Below are positions 31,536 to 54,068 of a stretch of DNA of 64,000 nt, piece by piece. This DNA is from Rosistilla ulvae (GTDB taxonomy: Bacteria; Planctomycetota; Planctomycetia; Pirellulales; Pirellulaceae), in assembly GCF_007741475.1 (NCBI RefSeq), contig NZ_CP036261.1, forward strand, positions 7,379,798 to 7,443,797. The letters run 5' to 3'. Each line of letters opens with the position of its first letter. Position 1 is the stretch's first letter. The position numbers were made by a program, and so were the translations under genes. The notes below the pieces were generated by a model. The model saw only the letters and a list, made by a program, of their open reading frames with translations, searched no databases and was not told where the DNA came from.

Positions 31536-33593
31536 CTAACGATCTTTGTGTGGAATGGCCAGATAGTGAACGTATCCGACGTCGCGCGGCCATTGCGATC
31601 GCCACTTCGCGAGAACGCTACCTGCGGATCCGGCCGCGAGTGATTCGGCGCGACCGATCACGCGGCTCGGTCCACCCAGCATCGCCAAGCTTGTCTCTTG
31701 GTTTTCCGACAGGGAAGGATCGGTGGCGGGCGTTTGATAGGCTTGGCCGTCGACCAACGCAAATCGCGGCTCGGGCAGCGAGGGGAACGCTTCGATCGAG
31801 AAGTCATTTACCAAGCGTTCCGGTTGGTCCAGCGGTTCGCTGCGGGTGACCAGCACACAGATCTCCATCCCCGATGGGCCGGAGATAGGGAAGACTTGGC
31901 CTTCGGTGGAAGGGAGCGATACGCGGCTGACCGGATGATTGGGAGGCCCGTCGCTATCGATCCATTGCGCTGTCCCATCGCTGCCGATCCAATAGGCATA
32001 GACGTAGCGTGGTTCTTCGAGAGTGACATCGATCCGCACGCGATCACCCTCCTTGATCGTACTTTGGAACGGCGTTAGTTCGACACCGTTGGGCTCCTTT
32101 GCGACTTGCAGGTTCCAGGTCAGGTGCACATCGCGATCGGCGAGTATCGGCGGAACGTCAAGCGCTGGATTGGCTGCGGTGTTTGTCGGATCGATCGAAG
32201 CGGTGGAGTTCGGGCTCATTCGCGAAGGCAGAAATAAAGCAGCTCCCACGAGAACGATCGCGGCGACTGCGGCCGCCGGTGCAAGCCATCGCGAGCGAGT
32301 CGATCGGCGGGAGTCGCCCGGCGATGCCTCGGATGTTTTCAGCCAGTCCGCCAAACGCTGCTGGACCGCGGCAGCTGTCGCGGGCCGCTGGGAGGGTTCT
32401 TTTTGCAAACAGGACAAACAGATCGCATCGATCTCCGATGGGATCTCCGCACGCAGTTTCGACGGCGGCTGGATCGGCCGTTCTGACATCAGTTCGGCAA
32501 TGGTTTGCATGACGGAATCGCCTTGGCACGCCGGCCGACCGGTAAGCAGCGCATGCAGGACACCGCCGAGACCAAAGACGTCGGTCACGGCAGAAACCGC
32601 TCCACGCTTCGATTCCAGCTGTTCCGGCGCCATGAAGCTGGGTGTCCCCAGGACAGCGCCGTCGACTGTCATCTGGTGCTCGCTGTCGGCCAGTAGTTTC
32701 GCCAACCCAAAGTCGACAACCATCACACGGCCATCGCGATGCCGCATGATGTTGCTGGGTTTAAGATCGCGATGGATCAACTGGCGCGTGTGCGCGTAAT
32801 GGACGGCCGCCGATGCGTCGCGAACGATCTCGGCGGCAGACCGGACATCTAGAGGCCCCTCCGACAACTCATCCTGCAAGCTCTGGCCGTCGACTAAATC
32901 CATCACCAAGAAATAACCGCCATCGGGACAACGACCGACCCCATGCACCGATACGATGTTCGGATGTTGCAGCGATGCGGTAACGCGAGCCTCTTGCAAA
33001 AAGCGGTCGACCAATTTTTGGGGCGCGTTGTTCGTGCGAAGCATCTTGATCGCGACAGGCTTGTTCAAGCTCTTTTGAATCGCTTGGAAGACCGATCCCA
33101 TGCCTCCCTGACCCAGGCAACGCTGCAATTCAAAGTCATCCAGGCTAAGCGGTGCGGGGTTGAATTCCGATGTGTCGCGTGCCAAATCGTTTGAAACCGA
33201 TCCGACGATCGTTCCAAACAGGTCGGCCTCGGCATCGATCCCCGAATCGACGGACAACTGGCGATCCACATCGGCTTGCAAATCGGGAAAGCGGCTAACG
33301 AATTCCTCTCGCAACCCGGTCGCTCCACCACGTGCACGGAACTCGCCAAGTACCAGTTCGGACCGCAATTCGGGGTCGCTATCGATATCGGGGCAACGCT
33401 TGAGGTACTCCTCTGCATTGATCGAATCACCGCGTGCCCAGCGGTATTTTTGATCGACCAACAGCGCATCGGCGCGGTCGCGTTGCGAGCAGTCGGCGAT
33501 CTGCACCAACATTCGATCAAGCGACGGCGGATCGGTTGCGTTCTCCCAATCGTCGATGATTTGAGATAGCAGAGATGGCTCAAGCGAACTCAT
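31536..33593 (-). CDS. Membrane Ser/Thr protein kinase with DUF4384-like outer domain
   Basis: The protein has 685 residues. The first 145 are helical and resemble the N-terminal part common on planctomycete kinases. The kinase domain (about 154-425) is canonical: GQGGMGSVF, Lys183 in VAIKML, HRDLKPSN (274-281), DFGLAK (295-300), GTPSFMAPEQ. A membrane helix (about 440-458, LAPAAAVAAIVLVGAALFLP) leads to an outer domain. Its core (VYAYWIGSDGTAQWIDSD, VFPISGPSGMEICVLVT) matches the DUF4384 beta-sandwich pattern. A similar domain is in the caspase at 47844-50144. It ends the co-directional protease cluster and lies 200 bases downstream of the S1C protease gene, which makes them likely partners. 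Confidence 0.88.
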   Translation of the reverse strand: MSSLEPSLLSQIIDDWENATDPPSLDRMLVQIADCSQRDRADALLVDQKYRWARGDSINAEEYLKRCPDIDSDPELRSELVLGEFRARGGATGLREEFVSRFPDLQADVDRQLSVDSGIDAEADLFGTIVGSVSNDLARDTSEFNPAPLSLDDFELQRCLGQGGMGSVFQAIQKSLNKPVAIKMLRTNNAPQKLVDRFLQEARVTASLQHPNIVSVHGVGRCPDGGYFLVMDLVDGQSLQDELSEGPLDVRSAAEIVRDASAAVHYAHTRQLIHRDLKPSNIMRHRDGRVMVVDFGLAKLLADSEHQMTVDGAVLGTPSFMAPEQLESKRGAVSAVTDVFGLGGVLHALLTGRPACQGDSVMQTIAELMSERPIQPPSKLRAEIPSEIDAICLSCLQKEPSQRPATAAAVQQRLADWLKTSEASPGDSRRSTRSRWLAPAAAVAAIVLVGAALFLPSRMSPNSTASIDPTNTAANPALDVPPILADRDVHLTWNLQVAKEPNGVELTPFQSTIKEGDRVRIDVTLEEPRYVYAYWIGSDGTAQWIDSDGPPNHPVSRVSLPSTEGQVFPISGPSGMEICVLVTRSEPLDQPERLVNDFSIEAFPSLPEPRFALVDGQAYQTPATDPSLSENQETSLAMLGGPSRVIGRAESLAAGSAGSVLAKWRSQWPRDVGYVHYLAIPHKDR

Positions 33594-33726
33594 AGCTGGA
33601 AGGACGATCCTCGTTAGTAGTGGAGGGGGAGATCTCGAATTGCTTCACTCAGCCCGTTCGGAATCTCAATCAAAGCACTATACCATCGATAACGCCATGC
33701 GACGCAACGGCTCTTCGGATCTCATC

Positions 33727-33757
33727 CGCCGCCTGACGTGCGTATCATCAGGCGGCG
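33727..33757. repeat. Ten-base-pair hairpin after the S1C protease gene
   Basis: Perfect inverted repeat CGCCGCCTGA (33727-33736) and TCAGGCGGCG (33748-33757) with an 11-base loop, 38 bases beyond the protease stop codon. It may terminate or stabilise that mRNA; there is no T-tract. Confidence 0.55.
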
Positions 33758-33794
33758 TCTGTCACCAACAGTGACGTTCTGGAACTCCTTCAGA

Positions 33795-35297
33795 TCACTT
33801 CTTGGAATCACCAGCCTCCGCAGGATCGGGTTCGGCTGGCGGTGTCTCCGTTTCCGGCTTCTTTTCTTCCGGCGACTCTGCGTCGGGTGTCGTTCCTTCG
33901 GGCTTTTTTGCTTGGGTCATCATCAAGACCTTAAACCGTTCCTGCAGTTTGGCGTCTCGGAACACGGTCGGATCGAACATGGGTTGTTCGTTCAATTCCA
34001 GCCTCTCCCATCCGTTGATAGTTTTAGCAATGGTTAGATCGCTGGTTCCGTTTTCATCGACGTCGGTCAAAATCAGGTCGAATTCGCCGTCGTTATCGCG
34101 ATCGTAAAAGACGCGATTGTTGGGGATGACAGCAAGGGCGAACTCGCACTCGAATTGCTTCCGATCCTGTTTACCAGCCTTGTAGTCCTCGATGAAATTT
34201 GCGGGAGTGTCGCTGTCCAAGTCGACGACAACTCCGGTGAATGGAGTTTCATCGTCGATTGAAAAACGCCAGGTTTCGTAGACGTCGTCATCGTCCACGT
34301 CCAAGAAGTCGCTAGTCGCGGCGGGGGGCCAATAGTTTGGTTGGAAGACTTCCGACTTTTCAGGTCGGTTTGCTGTGAATTCCTTGACTTCGTCCAGATG
34401 CACGTGGTAGCTGAATTTGTCCAGGTTGACCTGTGAGTCCTTCTCGCTTTTCGGGATCGCAAAGTTCACCGCGACCAATTCGCCGTCGTTGTTCAGCAAC
34501 GGGCCGCCGGAGTCGCCTGGATTAATTCCACAAGTCGAAAGCAACGCCTTCCGCGGTCGGCTTTGGCTGAGCGCATTGGCAAACGATTGCTTGGCATCGG
34601 ACGCCATCACCATCTGCGTCATGACCGTGTCGATCATATCGTGAGGGTACTTGGCGATACCGACAACTTCACCGCTTCGCACAGCCCAAAACACGCCTCG
34701 CTTCGGATGGCCGATGGTGATGCAATCGGTTCCAGGAGTTGCGTTTTTCGTCGCGAACACGATCGGTTTCAGTTCGCGTCCCTCGGGGACAGCCAGCAGT
34801 TTCAGAATCGCCAGGTCCTTCTCGGGACTCGCTGCATAAACCAGTGCCGGAGTGGCCTGCTGGTTTAACGTCATCATCCCATCTTCCAAGTCACCAAAAT
34901 GGATGTACGCCATTCGGCTAGCCGTGTTGATATCGATTCCAGCCGATTCAATGACGTGATTGTTGGTCAGGATCCAACCGTCGGCATCGACGATGAATCC
35001 CGTCCCGTAACCGCCTCCCGCACGTACCACAACAACGGAGGGAGCGATCTTGGGAAACACGCTTGCAGCGGGACCACGACTCGCTTGACCGAGCAGTGCT
35101 CCCAATCCCTTGGGAATCGGCTTCGCATTCAGATCAATCGGTCCCGATCCCGGTTGCAGCGCGGCCAACGCTTGATCGGCATGCACCGGCAACGATACGG
35201 GCTTCCCCGCCTCCTCGTTTGCACTCGTTGTCGATGTCGACATCAACGCCGCAAGCGACATTAAAACGAGGTTCTTCTTCCAACTTGTTTTCTTCAC
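33795..35297 (-). CDS. Secreted trypsin-like (S1C, HtrA-type) protease with Asp-rich calcium-loop region
   Basis: 500 residues from GTG 35297, which has GGAG upstream. The signal peptide is WKKNLVLMSLAALMSTSTTSA. The protease domain (about 78-290) has the triad His114 (ILTNNHV), Asp161 (EKDLAIL) and Ser263 (NPGDSGGPL). No PDZ domain follows. Instead, residues about 320-420 carry acidic loops (DVDDDDVYE, DRDNDGEFD, DVDENGTSD) like calcium-binding repeats. The tail (about 450-500) is Pro/Glu/Lys-rich and probably disordered. It likely cleaves envelope proteins. The neighbouring kinase gene is co-directional 200 bases downstream. Confidence 0.88.
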   Translation of the reverse strand: MKKTSWKKNLVLMSLAALMSTSTTSANEEAGKPVSLPVHADQALAALQPGSGPIDLNAKPIPKGLGALLGQASRGPAASVFPKIAPSVVVVRAGGGYGTGFIVDADGWILTNNHVIESAGIDINTASRMAYIHFGDLEDGMMTLNQQATPALVYAASPEKDLAILKLLAVPEGRELKPIVFATKNATPGTDCITIGHPKRGVFWAVRSGEVVGIAKYPHDMIDTVMTQMVMASDAKQSFANALSQSRPRKALLSTCGINPGDSGGPLLNNDGELVAVNFAIPKSEKDSQVNLDKFSYHVHLDEVKEFTANRPEKSEVFQPNYWPPAATSDFLDVDDDDVYETWRFSIDDETPFTGVVVDLDSDTPANFIEDYKAGKQDRKQFECEFALAVIPNNRVFYDRDNDGEFDLILTDVDENGTSDLTIAKTINGWERLELNEQPMFDPTVFRDAKLQERFKVLMMTQAKKPEGTTPDAESPEEKKPETETPPAEPDPAEAGDSKK

Positions 35298-35656
35298 GGT
35301 GTCGGTCTCCAAAGGTAGTGATGGAAAATGCTTCGTCGGAACGCGAATTGACCCGCCGGATCGCAAGGCAGTTCAAATCCTTCTCCTGGGACGGTATCAG
35401 GATGGATCAGCATCGATTGCCGTACGGCGGGCTTCAGCCGCATCGAATGGTTCCGTATTCAAGCCGAAGTCGATGGACGGCGGTCTGAATGCTTGGTTGG
35501 GTTTCGAATCAATGCAGATCGCCTCTGCCGCCTTTCCCACGAGCCTCCCGTTCACAAGTGGCGAAAGCAAAAGGGCTCGTGGGATTCAAACATGTGATCG
35601 CGAATGTCGCAATCATTCGTGCCTACTTCGATCTACTGTCAGGCATCGAATCGTCT
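35298..35656. repeat. Intergenic gap with an 11-base-pair palindrome
   Basis: About 360 bases between the TPR gene stop and the protease start. TCCCACGAGCC (35535-35545) and its exact complement (35574-35584) bracket a 28-base spacer. The promoter of the protease gene should be here. No gene is seen. Confidence 0.5.
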
Positions 35657-37729
35657 CTAGTTTTGAGTAACCTGGTCGCCAATCGATACATCCAGAGCAA
35701 CAGCCCCGGGCGTAGCCGGACTTGCAACCGCCGTCGTGGTCGCAAGCAGTTTCTCTAACTGTCGGAGTTCCTTATTGCGACGTTTTTGCAACTTTCGGTT
35801 CGGTAAGATAGCCAGCACCGAAAGGGCGACGATGATGCTGGTAGTGAGTGTTAGGAACACCCACAGGAACAACGAGTATCCTCTTTTCTCGGCGTAGTTG
35901 GCTGCGACGATGCAGAAGATCACGAGCCAAAACCAATCGCGACCGCTTGCTGATGCATTCCCAGACGCGCTCTCATCCAGCATCGCATCGCTTGTGGCAG
36001 ATGGCAACGCTGGGGGAGTGGGCTCAGCGGGTGGCATCGCTGCGACGTCGGGCGTGGCGCCGCTGGATTCTTCCGTGGGTGCCGGGTTTGCGATCGCTTC
36101 ATTCATCATCGCGATGTTTGCGTTGACGGTGGTCAGTAGAGCGTGTTCGGGGGCCACTTCGAGCAAGATTTCGCGGGCGCGATTAAGAAACGTTAATGCT
36201 TTGGCTGGGCCAGAGACATTGGCGTGATACACCCCGAAGCGATTCCCAATATCTGCATCGCGAACATCATACGGAAGTTCCAACTCACGCCGCAATGAAT
36301 AACACTTGTCCAACGCCTGCATCGACTCAAGTGATTGCCCCCGTTCGGTCTCCGCAATCCCCAGCGAATACAACAGCTCTTGCTTGAGAATCTGGTCAGG
36401 GAATCCTGATTTTTCGTTCGAATCTAAGCCAGCACGATAGCTTTCCACCGCGGCTGCGGGTTGTTCTGACGCTTGTTGGTACCGAGCAAGCAGCATCCAC
36501 GATTTTGCAAGATCAGGATGGTTTTCACTTAGCATCTGCTGTTCGATAGCGATCCCCTCACGGATGGCTTCGGCGGCTTCTTGCGGTCGATCGCTAATCC
36601 CCAGCAAGGCAGCTTCGTGAAACTTGATCGAAGCCATCGGTGATGAAACTTCACCGAACGCAGCTGCATCCTTCTGCAATTCATCTAGTCGTTGCATCGC
36701 TTCGTCCAGTTTGTCCGCACGAGCTGCTTCGCCGTTTTCGGCGAGCTTTTCATTCCATTTGGAAATCGATGCGATGCGATCGATCCGCTGCTGCATCGCC
36801 TGGATAGCATCCGGCTTCTCAAGATGCTCCAACAGGACCAACTGATGCGTTAGGAGATTTTGGTAACCATTGGAATCCGGCCCCATCAGCTTCTCTGCTG
36901 CTTCGATCGCAAGCGTGTTCTCGATCAACGCCTCTTCGTATTTCTCTTCCGACTCCAACGTGATAGCCAACCGATATCGGCTGTTGATCACCTCTAGATG
37001 GATCGGCCCCAGTGCACTTTCAATCAAGCGTAGCGATTCCTGGCGATACGGAAGCGCAGCAGCCGGTCCACGATGAGTTTCCAGCTGAGTTGCCAACTTG
37101 TCAGTGCCCGCTGCGACCTCGGCAGACTCAGGTCCTGCAACGACCTTCTGAATCGCAAGGATCTGTTCAAGGTTTGCGATGACGTCATCGAATTGTTTCA
37201 ATTCGCTATTCACTGTGACAAGCGAATTGAGCGTCGGAATCAGCCGAGCGTCATTCGCCCCGATGTCCTCTATTCGCAATGCGAGTTGCGTTTTCAAAGC
37301 TTCCAATGCGACTTCGAGCTTGTTCGATCGATAGGCCGCGATTCCCAGGTTTGTCAGCATCGTGTCTCGATTCGGCAGATACACGCTGGGATCGAGAGCC
37401 TCTTTGGCTGCTTCGAGCGCATCGAGGGCGGATTGGAAATGTGCCATCGCTTCGGCAGGTTGATCTTGATCGATATCGATCAGCCCCAGCATGTTATTGG
37501 CATCTGCAATGAGCTTGCCCGATTCGGCCAATTGCTCGGCAGCGTTGAGTGCTTGCAGGGCGTTAGTTTCCGCTTCCTCGAAGCGTTTTTCGATTCGTGC
37601 TCGATCAGCCAAGATAAGGATCTCGTTGGCTGCCTCACGCTCATCGGCATGGCAGGTTTGGCAAAGAGTTCCCGTGACGACCTGGCTTAACACCGTCAAA
37701 AGGATCGCGAAAATTGGTTGTCGGATCAT
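35657..37729 (-). CDS. Secreted/membrane TPR protein, last gene of the CHAT-caspase operon
   Basis: The protein has 690 residues. The signal peptide is FAILLTVLSQVVTGTLC. A long helical array of tetratricopeptide-like units follows (AEAMAHFQSALDALEAAKEA, VALEALKTQLALRIEDIGAN, EAAEAIREGIAIEQQMLSEN, PAAAVESYRAGLDSNEKSG, and others) to about residue 560. Two closely spaced membrane helices (WFWLVIFCIVAANYA and LFLWVFLTLTTSIIVALSVL) and a basic stretch then lead to a short C-terminal tail. The tail (ALDVSIGDQVTQN) resembles the tail of the zinc-ribbon-FHA protein at 40022-41638. The TPRs would face the periplasm and dock partners. It starts inside the stop of the preceding gene (ATGA, 37726-37729). 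Confidence 0.8.
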   Translation of the reverse strand: MIRQPIFAILLTVLSQVVTGTLCQTCHADEREAANEILILADRARIEKRFEEAETNALQALNAAEQLAESGKLIADANNMLGLIDIDQDQPAEAMAHFQSALDALEAAKEALDPSVYLPNRDTMLTNLGIAAYRSNKLEVALEALKTQLALRIEDIGANDARLIPTLNSLVTVNSELKQFDDVIANLEQILAIQKVVAGPESAEVAAGTDKLATQLETHRGPAAALPYRQESLRLIESALGPIHLEVINSRYRLAITLESEEKYEEALIENTLAIEAAEKLMGPDSNGYQNLLTHQLVLLEHLEKPDAIQAMQQRIDRIASISKWNEKLAENGEAARADKLDEAMQRLDELQKDAAAFGEVSSPMASIKFHEAALLGISDRPQEAAEAIREGIAIEQQMLSENHPDLAKSWMLLARYQQASEQPAAAVESYRAGLDSNEKSGFPDQILKQELLYSLGIAETERGQSLESMQALDKCYSLRRELELPYDVRDADIGNRFGVYHANVSGPAKALTFLNRAREILLEVAPEHALLTTVNANIAMMNEAIANPAPTEESSGATPDVAAMPPAEPTPPALPSATSDAMLDESASGNASASGRDWFWLVIFCIVAANYAEKRGYSLFLWVFLTLTTSIIVALSVLAILPNRKLQKRRNKELRQLEKLLATTTAVASPATPGAVALDVSIGDQVTQN

Positions 37730-38307
37730 GATGTGGTCGCTCCAGTTGAATCGGTTTGTGCAAAAGCAGTCGCTGCCGTTTGATATTCTGTCAAACGGTT
37801 AGAAAACATTTCCATGTTTTCGCTAGACGTAGGGGCGACGCGGCAGGCGAATTGAGATTGTTTTCCCGAGGGAAGCGAATACGTCACATAGTGTGTGGCG
37901 CGTCCAAACATCAGGATGATCAACGGGACGATAACAAAGCCGAGGATCCCTAACACGATTTGAAGGACTGGATTTGATTGCTCCATGCCAGCGAAAAGCA
38001 ATCCGGCAACTCCTAGGAACCAAAGCAACAAGAACAGGATTTTCAGAAGTCCAAGCGACACCCAACGTCCCGTTGTTCGGTACTTTGTGATCCGCGCATA
38101 GGGCACCGTTCGCGTTGTTCGTTCGGTCAAAAGCGCCGTGTAGAATTGAGAGATGAATGGAATCCTAAACTTGGGCAGGTCGCCACACACCACGATCGCG
38201 GTTTCTTGGAAGTTGACATCACCCTTTCCGGTAAAGTCCAGGCGCTTACCAAATATCGAATTCCATAACGACATGCGTGGTATTTGAAATTTAACGTTGA
38301 ATTTCAT
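37726..38307 (-). CDS. Two-TM membrane protein of unknown function
   Basis: The protein has 193 residues. A charged N-terminal part of about 90 residues with beta character (FTGKGDVNFQETAIVVCGDL, RTVPYARITKYR) could be a PH-like domain, although this is only a pattern impression. Two membrane helices follow (GLLKILFLLLWFLGVAGLLFA and LGILGFVIVPLIILMFG), then a short soluble tail ending in a Ser/Thr-rich stretch (TAATAFAQTDSTGATTS) that could be phosphorylated. Both ends overlap the neighbours by four bases, so its product is made together with the kinase upstream and the TPR protein downstream. I do not recognise the family. Confidence 0.75.
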   Translation of the reverse strand: MKFNVKFQIPRMSLWNSIFGKRLDFTGKGDVNFQETAIVVCGDLPKFRIPFISQFYTALLTERTTRTVPYARITKYRTTGRWVSLGLLKILFLLLWFLGVAGLLFAGMEQSNPVLQIVLGILGFVIVPLIILMFGRATHYVTYSLPSGKQSQFACRVAPTSSENMEMFSNRLTEYQTAATAFAQTDSTGATTS

Positions 38308-39986
38308 GATTGCACTCCCAGTTGGTTAGCCGACTGATCGCGCAGTTCGCGAAACTCGAAACAGTAACCCGCGACGGCGAGGAACGAATCACAGACTCCG
38401 ATGGCTTCCTGGTACAGCCGTAGTTCGAAATAGCTGTGTGCCAACAACATGCCAGCTTCCATGTTGTAAGGGTCATCATCGAGCATCAACTTGGCCTCAA
38501 CCGCCGCTTGTTTTACTTTGTCATTCGCCAGAAGTGTCTCTGCGTACTTTTGCCGAACACCGAGGTCTTCGCTTCGTTCTTGCGCCATCGTTTCCAGAAT
38601 TTTGAGCTGCATGCTCGAATCGCCTGCGTTTTCAGTAATCGACCGCCGCAGGTCACGCCCGCGTTGCAAATATCGGATTCGTGAAAAGAGGTAGCAGGTC
38701 AGTGGGACAAAAATGAGCGAGAAAATAGCCGATCCCAGCACTCCGATGCGAAGTGTGCCGGCGTCGACTTGAATCCCTCCTCCTTGCAGTCCAGCAAGCA
38801 TTGCTGGCAAAACAGCTTCACTTGCGAGATACCCCAGAACGAGCGTCAATAGGCCAAGCACCGTATAGATCAGCGACCGTCCCCACTGTTGTTTGAAAAA
38901 CGCCGCTCGCTGTCCTGTATAGAACAACCACAGCCCCAGCAGAACGATCACCGTCGATGGTATCATCAGCGGGCCCGCCCAAAAGATCGCACTGATCACG
39001 CAACCAATGGTGGCCAAACGAATCGCGCGGTTTGTCTGATCGTCGATGGTCAGTTTGTGGTCAATCCCCTGATTCAGTTCGCCGGTCGAAGATGTCGATT
39101 CATCTCCCAGCAGCTTCAAAAGCTCGGCCGGAGATCCAGTTCGAGTGGACAATTGCTTTTCCAACAGCCCGTAGATAATTGTGGCTAGCTGATCATCGTT
39201 CGAATTTCCCAGTATCTCTTCGAGCGGGACCGGAGTCTTGTAAAAGACTTCCGACGCCAATTCTTTGACGGTTTCGCCGACAAACGGCAAATCGCCAGTA
39301 AGCATTTGATAGGCCACCACCCCCAATGCCCAGAGGTCCGATTGGGTCGTCGCGCGTCCACGCAACTGCTCCGGAGCCATGAACTGATAGGTGCCGCCGG
39401 TGTTTCGTGAAACTTGAATTCCGTCGGCGACGCGGCTGATCCCAAAGTCGGTCAACACAAAACGTGGGACATCGCGTGGTTGCCCGTCATCGGAGGTGAT
39501 AACCAGGATGTTCGCAGGCTTGATGTCGCGGTGCAGGATTCCTGCCGCATGGGCATGTTGAAGTGCCGACGCCATTTGGCGTAGAAACTCGCGAACCTCA
39601 GCGGCACTGAACGTCCCGTGCTGCTCGGCGTATTCTTTTAAATCTCGCCCATCCAAGTACTCCAGTGCGACAATCAATCGATCGTTGTCGATGAAAAAAT
39701 CTAACAGTCCGACGATTCCCGGATGCCGAAGCTTGGACAGAATCTCCGGCTCCATCAGCAAACGATCCAAGTTGCCGCGGTTTTCAACCACTTTTAATGC
39801 AACCTTGGTTTCGGGAGCGTCGACGTGATGGGCGAGGTAGACCGTTCCGTGAGCCCCTTTGCCAATTTCTTGCCGAAGCATATATGGCCCAATCTTCCGT
39901 TCGGGCGGGGGCGCACCGCGGTTATCCAAATCAGGTTTGTCGGGCATCGTTGCAGTAGTCATGTTCACCTTGTCAAAGTTGTTCAA
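38304..39986 (-). CDS. Ser/Thr protein kinase with four-helix membrane part and TPR tail
   Basis: The protein has 560 residues. The kinase domain comes first (about 35-295): GKGAHGTVYLAHH, Lys65 in VALKVV, HRDIKPAN (152-159), DFGISR and GTYQFMAPEQ; the Thr-containing activation loop favours autophosphorylation. Several membrane helices follow (IGCVISAIFWAGPLMIPSTV, IVLLGLWLFYTG, LIYTVLGLLTLVLGYLA, GSAIFSLIFVPLTCYLF). The C-terminus carries about two TPR-like repeats (QKYAETLLANDKVKQAAVEA, NMEAGMLLAHSYFELRLYQE). It lies 35 bases downstream of one FHA protein and two genes from another, so its obvious readers are encoded beside it. The start could also be ATG 39962. Confidence 0.88.
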   Translation of the reverse strand: MNNFDKVNMTTATMPDKPDLDNRGAPPPERKIGPYMLRQEIGKGAHGTVYLAHHVDAPETKVALKVVENRGNLDRLLMEPEILSKLRHPGIVGLLDFFIDNDRLIVALEYLDGRDLKEYAEQHGTFSAAEVREFLRQMASALQHAHAAGILHRDIKPANILVITSDDGQPRDVPRFVLTDFGISRVADGIQVSRNTGGTYQFMAPEQLRGRATTQSDLWALGVVAYQMLTGDLPFVGETVKELASEVFYKTPVPLEEILGNSNDDQLATIIYGLLEKQLSTRTGSPAELLKLLGDESTSSTGELNQGIDHKLTIDDQTNRAIRLATIGCVISAIFWAGPLMIPSTVIVLLGLWLFYTGQRAAFFKQQWGRSLIYTVLGLLTLVLGYLASEAVLPAMLAGLQGGGIQVDAGTLRIGVLGSAIFSLIFVPLTCYLFSRIRYLQRGRDLRRSITENAGDSSMQLKILETMAQERSEDLGVRQKYAETLLANDKVKQAAVEAKLMLDDDPYNMEAGMLLAHSYFELRLYQEAIGVCDSFLAVAGYCFEFRELRDQSANQLGVQS

Positions 39987-40021
39987 GTCATTGATTTCAA
40001 GTTTGGTTTGTCGAGGGCTCG

Positions 40022-46700: not shown

Positions 46701-47525
46701 AGACTGTTGGTAAACTTCCAACGCCTTCTCTAGACTTTTAATCGCATCCTGATAGTCGCCACGGCTTGTAGCGAGAGTGGCCCAAGCAACAAGACTGTCG
46801 GCATACTCGGGATGTTCATCACCAAACAACAGTTCGCGAATTCGAAGCGCTTCGCGGGCGAAGGGTTTGGCGGCTTGGAAATCGTGAATTGTGGAGTACG
46901 ACAGCGATAACGATCCCATCGTTTCGGCAGTCTGCGGGTGCTCAAGCCCGAGTATCGAACGCTCGATCTCAAGTGCCTTTTTGCCGAAATCGATCGCTTT
47001 AAGATAGTCTCCTGCCTCTTCAAATTTCCGTTGTTTTTGACGCAATTCCTCGGCTTGCTTGAGGCTCTCGCGTTGTTTGGGTGTAAGTTCCCGATAGATT
47101 TGCACGTCCTTGAGATGCAATCGAGTTTCTGCGGTTCGCCAGTCATTTTTCCCGAGGGCTGGTTCGATGATTTGCAACGCTTCGGTGGCCGATGTCTCGG
47201 CACCAGCAAAATCCTCATTTTGTCGCTGAAGATCCGATAGCATTACCAACAGTTGAGCGGTGTCGACACTCGCCCCGCCAGCAACCCGTCGTTGCATGGT
47301 GAGCAACCGCTGCATCGTTTCAATCGCAGTGCCCAGTTCACCATTCTCATAGTGCTGCTGGGCCTGCTGCATCAATCCCTCCATCTTCTCTTGCGATGGA
47401 GCGCTTTCTACTTCACGCAGCTGCGCATATGCTGTTGCGTTCAGGCAAATCGACACGGCGACAGCAAAGACACAGGCGAAATGCCACAGCAAAAAATTCA
47501 AGCGGAACGGCAAGTTCATCGACAT
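43704..47525 (-). CDS. Secreted TPR-CHAT protease
   Basis: The protein has 1273 residues. The signal peptide is FACVFAVAVSICLNATAYA. About twelve tetratricopeptide repeats fill residues 50-700 (for example YQDAIKSLEKALEVYQQSFG, FDEAVAHYDRALNIAERAVG, YQKAELVYKESLALIVQSQG). A coiled segment and then the CHAT domain (about 880-1273) follow: catalytic His in LHLATHGFFAA, catalytic Cys in VVLSACETGLGEVAGGEG, and GARSTVASLWQVGD. CHAT is a caspase-fold protease; the best-known TPR-CHAT cuts gasdermin or other targets when its TPRs sense a partner. This one is exported, which is unlike Craspase. It is the first large gene of the operon and follows a 63-residue secreted peptide by 15 bases. Confidence 0.9.
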   Translation of the reverse strand: MSMNLPFRLNFLLWHFACVFAVAVSICLNATAYAQLREVESAPSQEKMEGLMQQAQQHYENGELGTAIETMQRLLTMQRRVAGGASVDTAQLLVMLSDLQRQNEDFAGAETSATEALQIIEPALGKNDWRTAETRLHLKDVQIYRELTPKQRESLKQAEELRQKQRKFEEAGDYLKAIDFGKKALEIERSILGLEHPQTAETMGSLSLSYSTIHDFQAAKPFAREALRIRELLFGDEHPEYADSLVAWATLATSRGDYQDAIKSLEKALEVYQQSFGEADLKVLQTLDDLAKNNASMGRFDEAVAHYDRALNIAERAVGKMAPAYQLMLNNLATVYSDQGHYQKAELVYKESLALIVQSQGKQSSSYTYCSNNLASHYQTMGAHQKARKLYEELLYLQEQAGGKSHPAYALTLSDLASLCSLEGDFEQAEALLRQALELFESRIGVQHPTYATCLGRLADLRLAQADFVDAGRLFQKALEVHKQSSGEGSLEYARSLNNLASFYSSMGDEAKAVGLYRQSNTIVRKIHGDEHPDSAISASNLALSLASMGETEKADATLQHALSVFKVNFGESHPKYIQALVSLGRLCLDAGKYEQAKTHLQHAHDLVLEVFGDENHEYLNVIRELAKLAFWTGDFETGQRLLRQAIETSTTISGEQHPQTFGLQSDLATLFYARKDFARAERLFRDSLHAARAGLDTAAMIQSERQQLAMAANIRVQLDTYLAMVVDAEQYQTRAFREVLRWKGATSVRQQQMRTVADDKELAPLFKKLQQTATRLASLSRIFPEPENQDSWKRQITELTAEKERLEAELSRQNATFRNAQDPVTLEDLLTAFPPDATLVDFVEYSRPNPDEVTNKDHRWVRSLVAFVIRKDQPIALFDLGPTAPVVKAIDTWRQSFGTSRDGIAAGQSLRKAIWQPLEKHLEETELVLVSVDGVLGRLPLQALPGKKPNTYLVEDHRLAFIPVPQLLPSLVAGQPPEPAANSLFVMGDVNYDADSNQAEKIASNSLSTAMVRGSDTYFSNLPGTVGEIATIQSVFSQQADASSADVMSLGQDEATEQAFREAASQYRTLHLATHGFFAAADKQSALASDAKRTGAQSVASERDQILRGFNPGLLSGLAFSGANRKPELDQDDGILTADEIAALRLDHVDLVVLSACETGLGEVAGGEGLLGVQRSFQVAGARSTVASLWQVGDVATKLLMERFYRNLWEKKMSKLDALREAQLHLLNHPEEVLGNEAFRGDRRVRPTKNKTQPNRLSPQFWAAFSLSGDWR

Positions 47526-47540
47526 GGACGATCTCCAATT

Positions 47541-47732
47541 TCACACGAAGTGAACGGGGGCGATAAATGGTTGAGCTGCCTGGATCAATTGCTGCATCGC
47601 TGCTGCCGATTTTTCGTCGATCCCGATCACCGGTTGGGCGTATGCAGGAGTAAGCAGGAACGCGGTGAAGGCGAGTGTCAAACTTCCGATCAACCGCTGC
47701 GTAGATGGCATCATGTTGTGTCCGGTTTTCAT
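47541..47732 (-). CDS. 63-residue secreted peptide upstream of the CHAT protease
   Basis: A clear signal peptide (RLIGSLTLAFTAFLLTPAYA) would leave a mature peptide of about 30 residues, QPVIGIDEKSAAAMQQLIQA to the end AQPFIAPVHFV. It lies 15 bases before the CHAT start, in the same direction, so it is likely the operon leader gene. No strong ribosome site is seen before ATG 47732; the Met-Met at 47714 is an alternative start. It could be a substrate, inhibitor or activating ligand of the CHAT protease. I know of no family for it. Confidence 0.55.
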   Translation of the reverse strand: MKTGHNMMPSTQRLIGSLTLAFTAFLLTPAYAQPVIGIDEKSAAAMQQLIQAAQPFIAPVHFV

Positions 47733-47843: not shown

Positions 47844-50144
47844 CTATTCGGCCGGACCGATAGTGAACTGCTGAGGTTGCGGGACCACTTGCCATGGAAC
47901 CGCGGTGGCTCCCCAAGAATCGTCGTATTGATTTCTGGGACGCCGTCGGCGACCGAAGCCGCCGCGCGTCTTGAATTCGGTTTGTTCCAGCAACAGCGTC
48001 TCCAGCGGTGAGGCGGAGTTTCGCGTTACGGGCAAGCCGCCTTGGGCCAATAGATGAAACCGATTGGGTGTGCGGGTAGCTAAGACGATCGCCCATCGCG
48101 AGCCGTAGATCGGTTTCTCATCCTCTTCGCCGTTGCAGACAAAGTAACCAGGAACTACCAGCGATTCGCCCGGTTTCAGTTTCTGTTCGCCTTCGGCCGC
48201 AGCTCCCGCTTCGGGTTGCCAGGGATGGATTTGGTCGATGCCCATGTTGCTGTCGACGTGCAACACCGTCACGTAGATCGGTTTCCCCGCTGTTTCCTTG
48301 TTGATGATGCGAAAACCGTACTCGTCGCCGTCGTGCATCACCAATTTTGCCGAGTGAGCGATGTCGGATGTTTCGGGTTCCCAGACGCTCGATCGGGTGA
48401 TGTTGTAGTCGGCGTCAGCTTCTTCGACAGTCAATAGTTCCAACGCGACGTCAACCGGTGACTGTCCGCCTTGCGGAAGGCCCGATGTCGAAGTTTCCTG
48501 GCGACTGGCCAACGCGATCAAGTTTCTTGCTCGAGTGATCCGCCGCAAAGAGTCTTGCAGTTGCGCGACGGTTTCGCTGCCGCGTCGCAGGTCAAACGGC
48601 CCCCATCCGCCGATCAAGCTCTTCGGCACTTCGTCGTCGCGGTCCTTTGCCACAACGTCTGGAATGTGCGACACACCGGTTGCCGGGAAGATGGCTGCAT
48701 AATCGCCATCGATCCTCAGCAGGTAATCGCAAGCTGATTCGCCGCCGACCCATTTCAGCCAAGGAGATTCCTGTCCTCGCACGGCGGACAGCAGCGACGT
48801 CCGCACAACCTCCGGAAGGTCAGCATCGTCGCTCGTCAGCGGGCGACTGTCCTGTGCCGCGTCGAGCGATCTGACGACGCGGATCTTCAGGATCGCGTCG
48901 CCATGTTCATGGTGCCGCTCGATCGCAAACGCTTTGCGAAAATCAGCGGGCAGACGCAGCGGCGTTTTCTGCTGGTCTTGCCACTGAAAGGCTCGACACG
49001 TCGCCGAACCACCTTCAGCCGTTTCGACCTCGAGCCAGCCGATCGAATCTCCGTTGCTGGAGGCGTTGGGCGTCGCATCCCACTGAGCCGAATCGGGGGA
49101 TTCATACAATTCGAACAGCGATCCGGCCGTCACCCCGTGCAGCATCCCCGCCGTCATCAAGACTTGCTCGCGGTCGCCCGGTATCGCTTGGACGGGCCAG
49201 ATGGAGGGACGGTCGAGCCCGACGCCATCGATGATCGTCTCCTTGAGCGAATTTGGGTCGCCGTATTCCAGCGTAGGCGTTGGGGCTTGAGCCACCGAAC
49301 CGCTGCTGCGATAGCGAGCCACGATTGCTTCGCGCAGCAGGTCGTACGACAAATTGGAAACCGCCGATTCCTGATTCAGGACTTCGACCAGGAACCGGGT
49401 CAGCAGCCCATACGGTTTGTCGCCGTCGTGGTATTCCGGTTCGACCTCCATCGATCGGCAGGCCGAAAGGAAGACAGCCCCGGCGGGGAGCCGTTTCGCT
49501 TGAACTCGACGTTTCTTGGTTGTCGGTTCGGGACGCAAATCGCGTTGCAGTTTGCGGACCTTCGTCACCCCGCGGGCCCCCGTGCCGCTGTGGCAACAGT
49601 CCAACACCATCCACATTTTCGCTCGCCCATCGCGGCAGATGTTGTCGACAAATCGATAGATCTCGTCGTCGCGAATGTCTTGTTCGCCACCCTGTTGGAC
49701 CGCATCGTAGGGAACCAACGTCTCGTCGAGTCCATCCTCTTCATCGCAATCTGGGTCGCCCGACGGTTGGTCGAGGACCTGGGAACCGTGGCCGCTGAAG
49801 TGAAAAACGACGACGGGCGTCTGGCCGCTGTCGACTTTGGAGACGCGTTCTTGCAGCCGCGCCATTTCTTTGCGAATCGCGGCGCCACTGGCTTCCGCGT
49901 CCAGCAGCGTGACGATGTCCGAATCGGCAAACCCGAATCGACTTTGCAACATCTGCTGCATCGCCCGCACGTCGTTTTCACAACCATCCAGCGTTTCGCG
50001 CAGATGTTCGTATTGGCCAACGCCAATAAGCAGGGCGAAGCGTGGGCGATCGCTGGGCTCGGCGATTGCCAGGGAGGCAAACGGCGATAGCAACAGAAAG
50101 ATCAAGGGCAAAGCGAACTGCAGGTGACACCTATCGCAACGCAT
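47844..50144 (-). CDS. Secreted caspase-like (C14) protease with DUF4384-like domain
   Basis: 766 residues from ATG 50144, which has GGGAG upstream; the frame is open to 50315 without a better start. The signal peptide is FALPLIFLLLSPFASLAIA. The caspase domain (about 35-330) has FALLIGVGQYEH, catalytic His119 in FHFSGHGSQ and Cys184 in VLDCCHSGTGARG, plus an acidic S1-like loop (DPDCDEEDGLDE) seen in Arg/Lys-specific metacaspases. The second half is beta-rich and contains a DUF4384-like domain (YGFRIINKETAGKPIYVTVL, LKPGESLVVPG). The C-terminus is Arg- then Gln/Pro-rich. It lies upstream of the operon (111 bases before the small peptide gene) in the same direction. Confidence 0.88.
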   Translation of the reverse strand: MRCDRCHLQFALPLIFLLLSPFASLAIAEPSDRPRFALLIGVGQYEHLRETLDGCENDVRAMQQMLQSRFGFADSDIVTLLDAEASGAAIRKEMARLQERVSKVDSGQTPVVVFHFSGHGSQVLDQPSGDPDCDEEDGLDETLVPYDAVQQGGEQDIRDDEIYRFVDNICRDGRAKMWMVLDCCHSGTGARGVTKVRKLQRDLRPEPTTKKRRVQAKRLPAGAVFLSACRSMEVEPEYHDGDKPYGLLTRFLVEVLNQESAVSNLSYDLLREAIVARYRSSGSVAQAPTPTLEYGDPNSLKETIIDGVGLDRPSIWPVQAIPGDREQVLMTAGMLHGVTAGSLFELYESPDSAQWDATPNASSNGDSIGWLEVETAEGGSATCRAFQWQDQQKTPLRLPADFRKAFAIERHHEHGDAILKIRVVRSLDAAQDSRPLTSDDADLPEVVRTSLLSAVRGQESPWLKWVGGESACDYLLRIDGDYAAIFPATGVSHIPDVVAKDRDDEVPKSLIGGWGPFDLRRGSETVAQLQDSLRRITRARNLIALASRQETSTSGLPQGGQSPVDVALELLTVEEADADYNITRSSVWEPETSDIAHSAKLVMHDGDEYGFRIINKETAGKPIYVTVLHVDSNMGIDQIHPWQPEAGAAAEGEQKLKPGESLVVPGYFVCNGEEDEKPIYGSRWAIVLATRTPNRFHLLAQGGLPVTRNSASPLETLLLEQTEFKTRGGFGRRRRPRNQYDDSWGATAVPWQVVPQPQQFTIGPAE

Positions 50145-50927
50145 CGACACTCCCGCCGTTACCCCGCTGCGTCGGTCTCCAAACAAGAATGCGAGCCAGG
50201 CGAACGGCACCGCGGCGATCGATAGCTTTCTCGACACGTTTACAGGCTGATTGGCAGCCCGGCACGTTTGGTTGACTGAAGGAAATGACACGTTTTCAAA
50301 TTTATACAAAACCACAAACCTTCTTCTTGCCCGTCGCGAAGGGAGGCCGCGCAGCGGCTAGCCCTCGGCTTGTATATGCTGAACTGTCGCTTAAACCGGA
50401 CGAAATTTTTGAAGATGCTTTTGGCTCAAGCGCCGAAGATGGTTGCTTCGCGGGAGAGCGGCAAGCCAAAAGATGGACGTAATTGGGATGCATCCTGATG
50501 CGGAACAAACGTCGAAGCTGCTTCGGCGTCCAGTAGAGCAGCAAGGTGGGAGAAACCAGTCGGCGGCAAGAGCGTTGGCCGCCAAAGTTGTCCCCTGCCC
50601 AAAGGCGAAGGGAGCTCTGCCGTTTCGAGGTTCGGACGGAATCAGCGTCGTTTTGCGCGACGAGCGACGAAATCGCGGACCCCACGATCATGCCTGTCCC
50701 TGCTTTTCGTCTTAGAGCCTGGTTGCTTCCTGCTGTACGCCGGTTCTTGGAAATGCAAGAGCCCGCGTCACCGCCCGCCGGCGGCAACCACAACCACCAA
50801 CTCGCCCGAGTGAATCGATACTACACTCCAAACAGGGAGACTGGAAGCGCCGGGATGATTGTTTTTTTGAGATGAGTCGAGCGACTGACTGCGGTCCAAG
50901 CTTCCCGTTATTCAACGCGCTCAACGG
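50145..50927. other. 780-base gap between the second CHAT gene and the second caspase gene
   Basis: No domain-bearing frame is found; several frames of 65-160 codons exist on both strands, all arginine-rich and mutually overlapping. The promoter of the caspase gene should lie near 50150-50300. I see no repeat module of the 10-18 kb type here. Confidence 0.45.
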
Positions 50928-53900
50928 CTAGCGTTCTGGTTTGGCATCGAAGCGGACTAGGTCGCTTCCCGCGGCGGTATAGACAGACCAGAAGTAGGGG
51001 TGGATCCAAACCTCTTTTCGGCCGCCGATGCGACGATCGCGAAGAAACGATCGCTGAGCTCCAGCCAGTGCCGACGCGACCGGTATCCCTTGATTCAGTT
51101 CGGCGAAGAACGCGTTCATCAGCAGCGGGCCGGTTGCGTCGTAGACGTCCCATTGGCCGGAGACAACGGAATTGGCACCCGAGGACAAGAAGGCGCGTTG
51201 CAAACCAAACAAGTCATCGCCGGGCAACGGCGACCGATCCGCCAAGCCCGAAAAACAGGCGCTCATCACCACCACGTCCGCTCCCACTTCGTTGGCGAAC
51301 ACTTCGGATGCCGTCAGGTGCCCGTCGGCGACCTCATCGGCATGGCACAACAAGAAGCTCGACATCGGCGCATCGGCATGATTCATTCCGTGCGTCGCCG
51401 CAAAGAGCATCCCCGGTTGATGCAGCAGCTTCACAACTTCGGATTCCAAAGCCTGATCACCTGTTACGAAAGTTTGCATTTGGTCGCCGAAGTGTTCCTT
51501 CAGATTTTTCAGATCCTGTTCCACTCCGGGCAGCGATGCCGCACCCTCGAATTCCGCGATCCCGATAGCGTGAACCTTCTGAACCCGTCGATCGCGATCG
51601 CGGAACAGTGCCCACGATTCCAACGACGGGGCGTAGGTGATCGCGAGGTCTTGTTCGATCAAAAACTTTGGCATCACCGTCTCGAATCCATCCGCCTTGT
51701 GAACATCCACCTCGGTGACCAACGCGGCAAATGGAAAGTAGTGCAGCACGTGATGCGGGACGATCACAACGGTCTCGGCGGCAGTCAGCTGATTTTGAAT
51801 CGACGGCGGTATCAAGATCGAATAGTAGTCTGCCAATGCGTCTTGCCAGCTGCTGTCGAAGCGGCCCTCGGATTGGTATCGAGCCAACATTTGCTGGGCC
51901 GTGAAATTCATCCCCTGCAGGAACTCAGTGACCTCGGCGATCAGTTGCCTGGGAGCGATCGGATTGCCGTCGCCGTCGACCAGCGGCAAGGCTTGAACTT
52001 CTCCCGCGGCGATCACGAAGACCCAGCTGTTTTCGCTCCCTAGAAAATACTCCAGCCCCACCACGTCATCGGGCCAATGTTCTAGTAGCTCGTCGAGTTC
52101 CGGGCCGTTGTCGTCGATCGCCGCGGACGCGTCGAGGTTTTTCGACATCAGTACATCCTGCAGCGAACGCGCTTTGCCCAGTTCAGCAAACCGCAGGGCT
52201 TCCATCGCATCGCCCTGTTGGATCAGCAGTTCGACGATCTGTTCGTTCACATAGGCTCGTCGTGCAAAGAACCCCGATCGCATCGCACCACTTCGACCAC
52301 TGTCGAACCGTTCTCGCAAGATTTCGGTGAGCAATTGAGAGATCATCAACGAGTTCAGAGGCGTATCGGCAGGGTTCTGCTCTGCCGCCGACGAACCCAA
52401 ACGCAGGTTCATCATGCCGAGCGTTCGGTATCCGCTTTCGATTCCGGGTAGATATCCAATCGCTGTGTAAGCTTTCAGAGCGTCTTGCAGATGGCGACGG
52501 CATGTATCGGCGTCTTCATCGCGAAAGGCTAAGTGAGCGAGGATCTCCGCCGCGGCACCTCGAGTCATCGCGTCGGGATCGTTCTCGCTAGCTGCGGCGG
52601 CAGATTGCCGAGCCGATTCGACGATCCGATCGTGGCCGACGCTGCTGAGTTCGGCTTCATCGCGACACAGCGTTTGGACGATGTCGGCTAACAGCACGTA
52701 GGCTCGGGCGAGATTGACTTGCGTCGCCGCGATCTGTCCCGGCGGCAGCGACTCCGCAAGTTGGAGAGCTTGCTCATATTGTTCGCGTGCCTGTTGCCAC
52801 TGGCCGACCGACAGCAACAGCGGGCTGCTGACACCCGAGGCAGCTTGGATGGCGTAGTTGTACAGGCGGTCTTGAGAACGCAGCAGTAGGAAGTTGGCAT
52901 AGTTGTTGTGCGCGCGAAACCGGTCGGACGCGGGGGCTTCTTGCAGGCATTCGATTGCTTTCGCGAAATGTTCATCCGCCGATGCCGCAGCGGTTGTGTC
53001 GGCAGCGGACTCCGAAAGGATCGTCGCGGTATAGAGATTCGCCAGACCTTGCGCACGTCGGTCCTCGCTCTCCTGGAGCAAGGGTTGCAGCGTCGCTGTC
53101 GCTTCTTGCCAACGATTCTGCAAGATCAAGGACCGGGCTTCGTCGATCGTGGCGATCCCCGTCGGTTGTTCGAGCGTCGACGCGGGCTCTTCTCCTTTTA
53201 ACTGGCGGAGAATCCTGTCGTTCCATTCTCGAAGGTACTGCGCCCAATCCTCTTTGGAGACTTGTTCGGTCAGATCCAACGCATCGCACAGATAAGGCTT
53301 GGGCTTTCCATCCTCGTCGATCGCCGACAGCATTTCGCCGATCGTGAGAACGCGAACCAGCGGATGCGATGATTCGCCCAGCAGGTCGGCCAGCGTCTCG
53401 GATCGCGCCAACATCCACTGGGCGGTCTCTTCATCTTCGACAGTGAACGACGTATTGTTCTTGCCATCGGCGTATCGCAGCGAATAGGTGCCCGGCGGCA
53501 GGCCGTCGGCGAACTGCTGCGGTAGATCGGGAATTTCAGCCCACGACAACTTCGCGACGCCTTCGGCAAGCGGGACTTCCAGTAATGGGTTGTTCCCCTG
53601 GTAGATTGTGATGGAGTCTTGGGGGAAAGCGATCTCGCCTTGTTGCGGCCGCCGACGCAGAGTCAGCTTTCCATCCAAATGCCGGCCTCCGTGGGCGGGC
53701 GTCAAAAATCCCTCCCCGCGAATCACCACCTGCCCCACGATCTGGTCCAAGGAAGATCTGGGGTTGGCATCTGCGGAAGCTGCCACAGGATTCGAATCCC
53801 GCGTCATCTGGATGTCGAACGATCGCGTTGCCGCAGCCAATGGAGCGGTTGCATCGGGCGAACCGATCACCCATCGATCGATCCCGTTCTGGCTCCAGAT

Positions 53901-54068
53901 CGTCAGCGCCCCGCTGTTTTGATCGAGCGCTTCCGCGCGCGGCAACGTCTCCAACTGGACATCCTTGTCGCCCAAGCGAAAGACGATCGCGAGATCCTCT
54001 TGCCCGGCCGCCGTTTGGATCGTCAGCAGGGATAAAAATCCCAAACTCCAAATTTTGCAGTGATTCAT
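50928..54068 (-). CDS. Secreted CHAT-domain protease with N-terminal beta domain and helical repeats
   Basis: 1046 residues from ATG 54068 (GAGGGG upstream). The signal peptide is IWSLGFLSLLTIQTAAG. The first 250 residues are beta-rich (VFRLGDKDVQLETLPRAEAL, YQGNNPLLEVPLAEGVAKLS), then helical TPR-like repeats run from about 310 to 640. The CHAT domain (about 700-1046) has the catalytic His in FAATHGMNHAD and catalytic Cys in VVMSACFSGLADRSPLPGDD, with GANSVVSGQWDVYD. It differs from the operon CHAT in the Cys loop (SACFSG in place of SACETG), so the two are distant paralogues. It is the most upstream member of the co-directional cluster, with its own promoter region. Confidence 0.88.
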   Translation of the reverse strand: MNHCKIWSLGFLSLLTIQTAAGQEDLAIVFRLGDKDVQLETLPRAEALDQNSGALTIWSQNGIDRWVIGSPDATAPLAAATRSFDIQMTRDSNPVAASADANPRSSLDQIVGQVVIRGEGFLTPAHGGRHLDGKLTLRRRPQQGEIAFPQDSITIYQGNNPLLEVPLAEGVAKLSWAEIPDLPQQFADGLPPGTYSLRYADGKNNTSFTVEDEETAQWMLARSETLADLLGESSHPLVRVLTIGEMLSAIDEDGKPKPYLCDALDLTEQVSKEDWAQYLREWNDRILRQLKGEEPASTLEQPTGIATIDEARSLILQNRWQEATATLQPLLQESEDRRAQGLANLYTATILSESAADTTAAASADEHFAKAIECLQEAPASDRFRAHNNYANFLLLRSQDRLYNYAIQAASGVSSPLLLSVGQWQQAREQYEQALQLAESLPPGQIAATQVNLARAYVLLADIVQTLCRDEAELSSVGHDRIVESARQSAAAASENDPDAMTRGAAAEILAHLAFRDEDADTCRRHLQDALKAYTAIGYLPGIESGYRTLGMMNLRLGSSAAEQNPADTPLNSLMISQLLTEILRERFDSGRSGAMRSGFFARRAYVNEQIVELLIQQGDAMEALRFAELGKARSLQDVLMSKNLDASAAIDDNGPELDELLEHWPDDVVGLEYFLGSENSWVFVIAAGEVQALPLVDGDGNPIAPRQLIAEVTEFLQGMNFTAQQMLARYQSEGRFDSSWQDALADYYSILIPPSIQNQLTAAETVVIVPHHVLHYFPFAALVTEVDVHKADGFETVMPKFLIEQDLAITYAPSLESWALFRDRDRRVQKVHAIGIAEFEGAASLPGVEQDLKNLKEHFGDQMQTFVTGDQALESEVVKLLHQPGMLFAATHGMNHADAPMSSFLLCHADEVADGHLTASEVFANEVGADVVVMSACFSGLADRSPLPGDDLFGLQRAFLSSGANSVVSGQWDVYDATGPLLMNAFFAELNQGIPVASALAGAQRSFLRDRRIGGRKEVWIHPYFWSVYTAAGSDLVRFDAKPER

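Follow-up and report, generated by a model that had tools for sequence, protein, structure and literature searches.

Bacterial caspases are often discussed as enzymes of death or defence, and a gene cluster in the planctomycete Rosistilla ulvae raises the question of what they do beside membrane kinases and readers of phosphothreonine. The genome is a single contig of 7.48 Mb (NZ_CP036261.1), from which we have analyzed a stretch of 64,000 nucleotides, referred to here as the window. A sequence-only reading of this DNA had named ten co-directional genes on the minus strand, and the list of open reading frames (ORFs), Pfam matches and motifs confirm the arrangement (31,536–54,191) and the products. 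These are two Ser/Thr kinases (K1 and K2), two proteins with FHA domains, two C14 caspases (Casp2 and caspase-FHA, the latter being also one of the FHA proteins), two CHAT proteases (TPR-CHAT and CHAT 2), an S1C protease, a TPR protein and a protein with two transmembrane (TM) segments. The small secreted peptide of that reading is also upheld, its frame, start and stop being the same in the sister genome G006. We read the cluster tentatively, with rather less than even confidence, as an envelope signalling locus that couples Ser/Thr phosphorylation in the cytoplasm to proteolysis outside the cytoplasmic membrane.

The block and its relatives

Three genomes of the genus were compared, those of the window (G000), G006 and G072. 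In G006 all ten genes are present, colinear and in one piece (window 31,549–54,252), at a different genomic site. The block is accompanied there by two neighbor genes (window 29,018–31,150), and lies between window positions 24,658 and 24,754; G072 is uninterrupted at this site. G072 gave no match to the two-TM protein, to CHAT 2 (E 1e-40) or to the zinc-ribbon-like/FHA protein, and its caspase matches are all distant (25–33%). The ten-gene block (31.5–54.2 kb) is a unit beyond chance, because it is colinear at two different sites in two species. Target-site duplications and terminal repeats were sought at its ends and not found. The two junction stretches of G006 that were compared share no direct repeat of 8–14 bases, and the longest match common to the block ends in the window was one 10-mer.

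The block is a mosaic, since third-position G+C and synonymous divergence (dS) vary between its genes. Third-position G+C is 0.54–0.60 in the TPR protein, the two-TM protein, K1, the zinc-ribbon-like/FHA protein and TPR-CHAT, and 0.64–0.68 in K2, S1C, Casp2 and CHAT 2. Between the window species and G006, dS ranges from 0.018 to 0.57 across the block. TPR-CHAT is the most diverged gene, with 79% identity compared with 91–99% in the other nine. Residues 201–500 of this protein, in the TPR part, are 54–69% identical with dS above 1, and the CHAT end (1101–1273) is 95–99% identical; the TPR region of the gene (43704–47525) has diverged as if swapped by recombination. The caspase domain of caspase-FHA is under purifying selection (dN/dS 0.051). 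Its caspase part is matched in eight plasmid records, none of which covers 80% of caspase-FHA.

A conserved core had been proposed at 35.6–47.7 kb, with scattered homologs as the outcome that would speak against it. The comparison divides the cluster differently: the core is not conserved, its FHA part being whole only in this genus, and it is the outer shell that is kept together. The two-TM protein is present in 2 of 149 genomes of the family and 1 of 392 genomes of the phylum, leaving out weak matches in G137, G296 and G509. As these were the only further matches it was rejected as a wider marker; the one of the three that was examined, the G137 protein, was set aside because we take it, from its HExxH motif, to be an M48-type protease. 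The zinc-ribbon-like/FHA protein is full length in this genus only, and five other genomes of the phylum sample match its FHA part alone. The membrane tail of K1 has only weak matches, in six other genomes. Caspase-FHA has matches at E 1e-10 in 12 genomes of the family, and only those in G000 and G006 extend into the FHA domain.

The shell is best followed through CHAT 2, which was found in 12 of the 149 family genomes at 15 loci, not all of them independent as G000 and G006 are close relatives. In 12 of these 15 loci there is a PF00656 caspase within 10 kb, whereas the caspase numbers of the genomes would predict 0.21. The association of caspase and CHAT 2 is thereby shown. G019 has, in order, CHAT 2, two proteins lacking a Pfam match, Casp2, TPR-CHAT, a 201-aa protein with hydrophobic segments, an extracytoplasmic function (ECF) sigma factor, a kinase and K2; identities to the window proteins are about 48% for CHAT 2, 63% for Casp2, 37% for TPR-CHAT and 48% for K2. 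In G028, where CHAT 2 found no match at E 1e-40, a TPR-CHAT gene (37%) and two caspase genes share a single 10-kb stretch. At the CHAT 2 loci of G018 and G108, regions that are kinase-like, TPR and caspase are joined in one polypeptide, and HRDxK and DFG are missing from its kinase part. When named genomes beyond the family were scanned, 21 loci were obtained. Thirteen were examined (L105–L108, L110–L114 and L116–L119), with L109, L115 and the weak L120–L125 standing outside this set, and five of the 13 repeat family loci. Among the eight further loci a caspase is present in the fetched stretch in four (L110, L112, L113 and L117). By these comparisons the conserved part is the shell, made up of CHAT 2, a caspase, TPR-CHAT and a membrane kinase and common in whole or part to other planctomycetes.

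Kinases also occur near CHAT 2. Leaving out G006, 6 of 14 CHAT 2 loci have one within 10 kb, where 13 other stretches give an expectation of 0.18 per 23 kb; TPR-CHAT is near CHAT 2 in 5 of 14 (one a 174-aa fragment) and in none of the 13. Two of the comparison stretches had been chosen for their caspases, and the contigs of some CHAT 2 loci are short. An ECF sigma gene was found within 10 kb in 6 of the 15 CHAT 2 loci (G008, G018, G019, G077, G087 and G097), and in all except G018 its ORF overlaps that of a kinase. The caspase-pair loci of G072 and G126 have no CHAT 2, and in these the sigma gene ends six bases from the kinase ORF. When seven of the sigma genes were checked against Pfam, five exceeded the cut-off, that of G072 fell just under it and that of G126 gave no match; the G019 gene was confirmed separately. 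The sigma profile was home-made and was run on 45 stretches, with seven CHAT 2 flank stretches outside the scan. It detected no ECF sigma gene, and hence no ECF–kinase pair, in the 64 kb of the window. Two flank stretches, from G072 and G000, matched weakly at 27–28 bits. A separate type of locus in relatives (L040:6901-16140 and L039:7461-16451) has two caspases, a sigma-like gene and a kinase, with no CHAT 2.

There are traces of FHA proteins at such loci elsewhere. G255, a distant planctomycete, encodes an FHA protein that shares 39% identity with the corresponding domain of the zinc-ribbon-like protein. One gene separates it from a TPR-CHAT gene, and a second TPR-CHAT lies downstream (TPR-CHAT being assigned by a home-made profile). 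In G044 a frame-broken FHA piece, 56% identical over 34 residues, is one gene away from CHAT 2. A link between FHA and CHAT may thus extend beyond this genus, on slender evidence. In a distant planctomycete locus (L139:518-14953) with an FHA gene and two TPR-CHAT genes, a rhomboid protease gene lies between the latter.

Predicted location and the proposed pathway

The location of the proteins was predicted from their domain order and N-termini. In both K1 and K2 the kinase domain precedes the membrane segments. K2 has one TM segment (437–455), followed by a C-terminal domain that is weakly DUF4384-like (0.0011, below cut-off) and predicted to lie outside; K1 has several (322–434), with a weakly TPR-like C-terminus. 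Caspase-FHA comprises, in order, a signal-like segment, the caspase, a TM segment (431–449), a Thr-rich linker (12 Thr in 48 residues) and the FHA domain. Among proteins that we chose for the purpose, signal-like N-termini were found in 14 of 15 caspases, 12 of 14 CHAT 2 proteins and all four TPR-CHAT proteins examined. The CHAT 2 of the window has a short signal-like start by eye. The N-terminus of S1C is signal-like by eye only. Since the kinase domains precede TM segments, the proteases are signal-like and the TM segment of caspase-FHA lies between its two domains, kinase catalysis and reading of phosphothreonine should occur inside the membrane and proteolysis outside. The proposal that phosphorylation gates proteolysis across the membrane is thus consistent with the domain order and export-like N-termini, and the gating itself is something that we infer.

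The two caspases, the two CHAT proteins, the trypsin-like protease and the two kinases all have intact catalytic motifs. Both caspases exceed the Pfam cut-off for C14 and contain GHG and DxCHSG, providing the His–Cys pair of the p20 fold, and both CHAT proteins have the CHAT domain with its His and Cys.

These elements could be connected as follows. The membrane kinases would read a signal, K2 by its outer domain and K1 by its membrane part, and phosphorylate segments in the cytoplasm that are rich in Thr, for instance the caspase-FHA linker. The FHA domains of caspase-FHA and the zinc-ribbon-like protein would bind the phosphothreonines and cluster the membrane proteins, gathering the outer caspase domains and so activating them. 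Active caspases might then act, by cleavage or activation, on the exported proteases that are soluble (Casp2, TPR-CHAT, CHAT 2 and S1C), whose own targets would be envelope proteins. In several relatives an ECF sigma factor is encoded in the locus together with the kinase; this genus has an FHA cassette there, and the window yielded no sigma gene. The direction of the signal, the gating by FHA domains and the proteolytic cascade are all conjectural. The most specific form of this scheme is possible, if doubtful: that caspase-FHA is a phosphorylation-gated transmembrane caspase, in which an inner kinase acts on the outer caspase through FHA clustering and sets off an exported caspase–CHAT cascade, the whole grafted into an older planctomycete ECF sigma/kinase/caspase/CHAT locus.

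Several observations weigh against coupling of this kind. Gating by FHA domains cannot be general, given that the FHA–kinase core was found in a single genus. FHA domains usually carry an Asn before Gly-Thr, and in our own reading both domains here are without it. Three of the 15 CHAT 2 loci have no nearby caspase (second copies in G019 and G097, and a partial copy in G119), and four of the eight loci from beyond the family have none in the fetched stretch (L105, L106, L111 and L119). Signal peptides were judged by a hydrophobicity rule and not by a trained predictor, and the window CHAT 2 (1.54) and two other proteins fall below its threshold. For the TPR protein, the TM topology can be read in more than one way.

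The signal might alternatively run inwards, with exported caspase and CHAT proteases sensing or processing an envelope signal and, via a membrane kinase, setting the activity of a transcription factor, which would be the ECF sigma factor in relatives and some other regulator here; the FHA proteins would then be adaptors. We consider this conceivable though unlikely. It would account for the ECF–kinase pairs of G097, G019, G008, G087 and G077, and for those in the caspase-pair loci of G072 and G126 (for the latter with the gene that Pfam does not match). ECF59, 61, 62 and 217 are proposed to be regulated by phosphorylation, and ECF54 has CHAT neighbors (PMC8999054). Csx29, the closest fold to CHAT 2, cleaves an inhibitor of a sigma factor (PMC10028731), and the anti-sigma factor DdvA is a further fold match. 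The window itself contains no sigma gene detectable with our profile, and a phospho-reader on the protease itself, as in caspase-FHA, is better suited to signalling from the inside outwards.

It had also been suggested that the locus serves defence or regulated death, in which case the proteases would be executioners released on infection. This found no specific support, and we regard it as improbable. In its favor, conflict systems described in the literature include caspases, trypsins, kinases and FHA domains (PMC7159879, PMC8195603), the block has a patchy distribution and has moved as a unit, and the TPR region of TPR-CHAT is strongly diverged between sister species (the 54–69% of residues 201–500). 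Searches with PADLOC and NCBIfam, however, revealed no system beyond generic kinase, protease, TPR and caspase models. The kinase domains of K1 and K2 match many PADLOC kinase models, of which PD-T4-6 and MAD6 were compared; MAD6 is below the NCBIfam cut-off, and partner genes were not searched separately. The Pfam hits of the ten genes include no nuclease domain, and no effector-associated domain (EAD) at E 0.01, a search that could miss weak EADs. The proteases appear to be exported, and a MoxR/vWA operon next to the block in the window does not adjoin the cluster in G006. The link to ECF sigma factors in relatives and the export-like proteases point to signalling.

That the genes are a loose cluster of independent signalling functions, together by chance or joint transfer, would fit the gaps of at least 200 bases between several of them and the spread of dS between neighbors, yet is highly improbable in view of the caspases near CHAT 2, the same shell order in another genus and the intact transfer of the block.

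Gene content, junctions and neighborhood

The features of the block are collected in Table 1.

Table 1. Genes of the block, with window coordinates and the basis of each assignment
Feature	Coordinates	Strand	Basis and remarks
K2, Ser/Thr kinase	31536..33593	-	Pkinase 2.2e-50; HRDLKPSN and DFG intact
S1C trypsin-like protease	33795..35366	-	Trypsin_2 2.6e-22; GDSGGP and TNNHV intact
TPR protein	35657..37729	-	TPR_12; N-terminal signal-like and C-terminal hydrophobic segments; tail motif in common with the zinc-ribbon-like/FHA protein
Two-TM protein, 193 aa	37726..38307	-	No Pfam match over cut-off; this genus only
K1, Ser/Thr kinase	38304..39986	-	Pkinase 1.6e-49; HRDIKPAN and DFG intact
Zinc-ribbon-like/FHA protein	40022..41638	-	C-terminal FHA 2.8e-10; TM segments; zinc-ribbon-like N-terminus below Pfam cut-off
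Caspase-FHA	41635..43713	-	Peptidase_C14 1.1e-15; FHA 1.3e-11; H219, C281
TPR-CHAT protein	43704..47525	-	CHAT 6.7e-64; His/Cys intact; signal-like N-terminus
Small protein, 63 aa, signal-like	47541..47732 (start 47732)	-	Frame kept in G006
Casp2 caspase	47844..50315	-	Peptidase_C14 2.3e-26; H176, C241; likely start Met58; signal-like N-terminus
CHAT 2	ORF 50928..54191; likely start Met42, ATG at 54068	-	CHAT 8.9e-48; N-terminal beta-rich part, TPR, CHAT

Four junctions in the core had been described as four-base ATGA overlaps. Those at 38307/38304 and 37729/37726 are genuine. That at 41638/41635 reads TGATG, giving an overlap of one base with an ATG start and of four with a TTG start, and that at 43707/43704 reads ATGA literally, which is valid only if caspase-FHA starts there. 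In the first 83 codons of caspase-FHA, 5 of the 14 substitutions between the window species and G006 are in the third position, compared with 38 of 56 in the remainder of the gene (Fisher P 0.035), and dN/dS is 0.38 in this extension and 0.11 thereafter. A signal-peptide-like segment follows Met84 (43464). Since the first 83 codons have no third-position bias and the signal-like segment comes after Met84, translation probably starts at Met84, leaving a true gap of about 240 bases to TPR-CHAT. With one TGATG junction and one doubtful start, two sound four-base couplings are therefore left in the core. The overlaps may still control stoichiometry.

The C-terminal tails of the zinc-ribbon-like/FHA protein (40022–41638) and the TPR protein (35657–37729) have in common the motif D-x-S-V/I-G-D-x-V-T, although the two proteins are otherwise unrelated. 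Only 1 of 2000 shuffles scored as high, but the pair is the best of 45 protein pairs compared. In 8263 ORFs searched, the pattern occurs elsewhere only in the G006 FHA protein; the TPR protein of G006 has I for V. The shared sequence may be a common docking tail.

Some further properties of individual proteins were noted. A relative of S1C (39%) adjoins a caspase gene in G077. The C-terminal region of Casp2 is long and has no family match; the idea that it forms one sensor domain with the tail of K2 was rejected, because comparison of the profiles gave a probability of 0.2 out of 100. For the two-TM protein, whose AlphaFold model has a pLDDT of 44, a bPH-like fold is a lead only. No solved structure matched the zinc-ribbon-like/FHA protein or CHAT 2 by sequence at the limits used.

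Around the block, an operon of MoxR, DUF58, vWA and BatD-like genes occupies 55708–61936. We rejected it (55.7–61.9 kb) as part of the system, as in G006 the cluster is near 0.2 Mb and the operon at 3.45 Mb. On the other side an ORF at 26020–27591 has a C-terminal AAA_33/Zeta-toxin-type domain and is 86% identical in G006. Short intergenic repeats with partly self-complementary cores lie at 27596–27751 and 28728–28919, and have many copies in G072 (most of 81 matches).

Relation to known systems and implications

The model of CHAT 2 (pLDDT 75.8, pTM 0.77) matches Csx29 with Z 27.3 (550 residues, root-mean-square deviation (rmsd) 5.7), the protease part of separase with Z 25.2 (315 residues, rmsd 3.5) and the transmembrane anti-sigma factor DdvA with Z 20.9 (546 residues, rmsd 9.3). 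The matches fall in residues about 300–1044, and residues 1–300 are barely covered. Csx29, the CHAT protease of the type III-E Craspase, controls a sigma factor by cleaving its inhibitor (PMC10028731). CHAT 2 aligns with it over TPR and CHAT, with His and Cys present, but has the extra N-terminal part, and 12 of 14 relatives have the signal-like N-termini described above. No Cas match that might represent a Cas7-11 partner was obtained in a Pfam scan of 20 window ORFs. The likeness to DdvA is again one of fold, with the difference that CHAT 2 is a separate protein.

Residues 433–587 of caspase-FHA (TM segment, linker and FHA) match the mycobacterial FhaB/FipA family at E 2.4e-10, but the score of 40.7 bits is far from the equivalog cut-off of 125 and caspase-FHA does not belong to it. 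To our knowledge FhaB has no caspase. A 2012 survey described 46 single-domain bacterial caspases behind one N-terminal helix, perhaps a signal peptide (PMC3501461). These resemble the caspases here in their N-terminal hydrophobic segment; the survey's main text makes no mention of FHA (PMC3501461). The MoxR-vWA-VMAP ternary conflict systems have caspase, trypsin, kinase and FHA parts that recur here (PMC7159879). The cluster differs in that its Pfam hits include neither VMAP nor EAD, no hydrolase is among those of the ten genes (in such systems the caspase goes with an alpha/beta hydrolase), and MoxR/vWA is merely a neighbor in the window genome and is elsewhere in G006.

According to a review, ECF groups 59, 61, 62 and 217, for which the examples given are planctomycete, are proposed to be regulated by phosphorylation, and CHAT genes neighbor ECF54 (PMC8999054). 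The loci of our relatives resemble the ECF–Ser/Thr kinase pairs of the former four in that the sigma gene touches that of a membrane kinase. They differ in the addition of caspases and CHAT, and in the window the search for a sigma gene gave none. The link between CHAT protease, kinase and sigma factor is a known theme, because Csx29 cleaves a sigma inhibitor and ECF groups with phosphorylation or CHAT neighbors have been reported. In the parts of the open-licence PMC literature that we drew upon (PMC7159879, PMC8195603, PMC3501461, PMC8406250, PMC11032199, PMC10907252, PMC8999054 and PMC10028731) there was no description of an exported caspase/CHAT/kinase/FHA locus or of an ECF/kinase/caspase/CHAT locus. 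The new element is the transmembrane caspase with an FHA tail, and the exported caspase arm is unusual among kinase, sigma and CHAT themes.

The recurrence of a locus of exported caspase and CHAT proteases, membrane kinase and ECF sigma factor suggests envelope signal transduction by caspase-fold proteolysis. If our reading is correct, the reading of phosphothreonine and the activation of a caspase would be united on one membrane-spanning bacterial protein. The sigma-coupled and FHA-coupled versions of the locus would provide a natural contrast, with K1 and caspase-FHA, and caspase and CHAT 2, as named partners.

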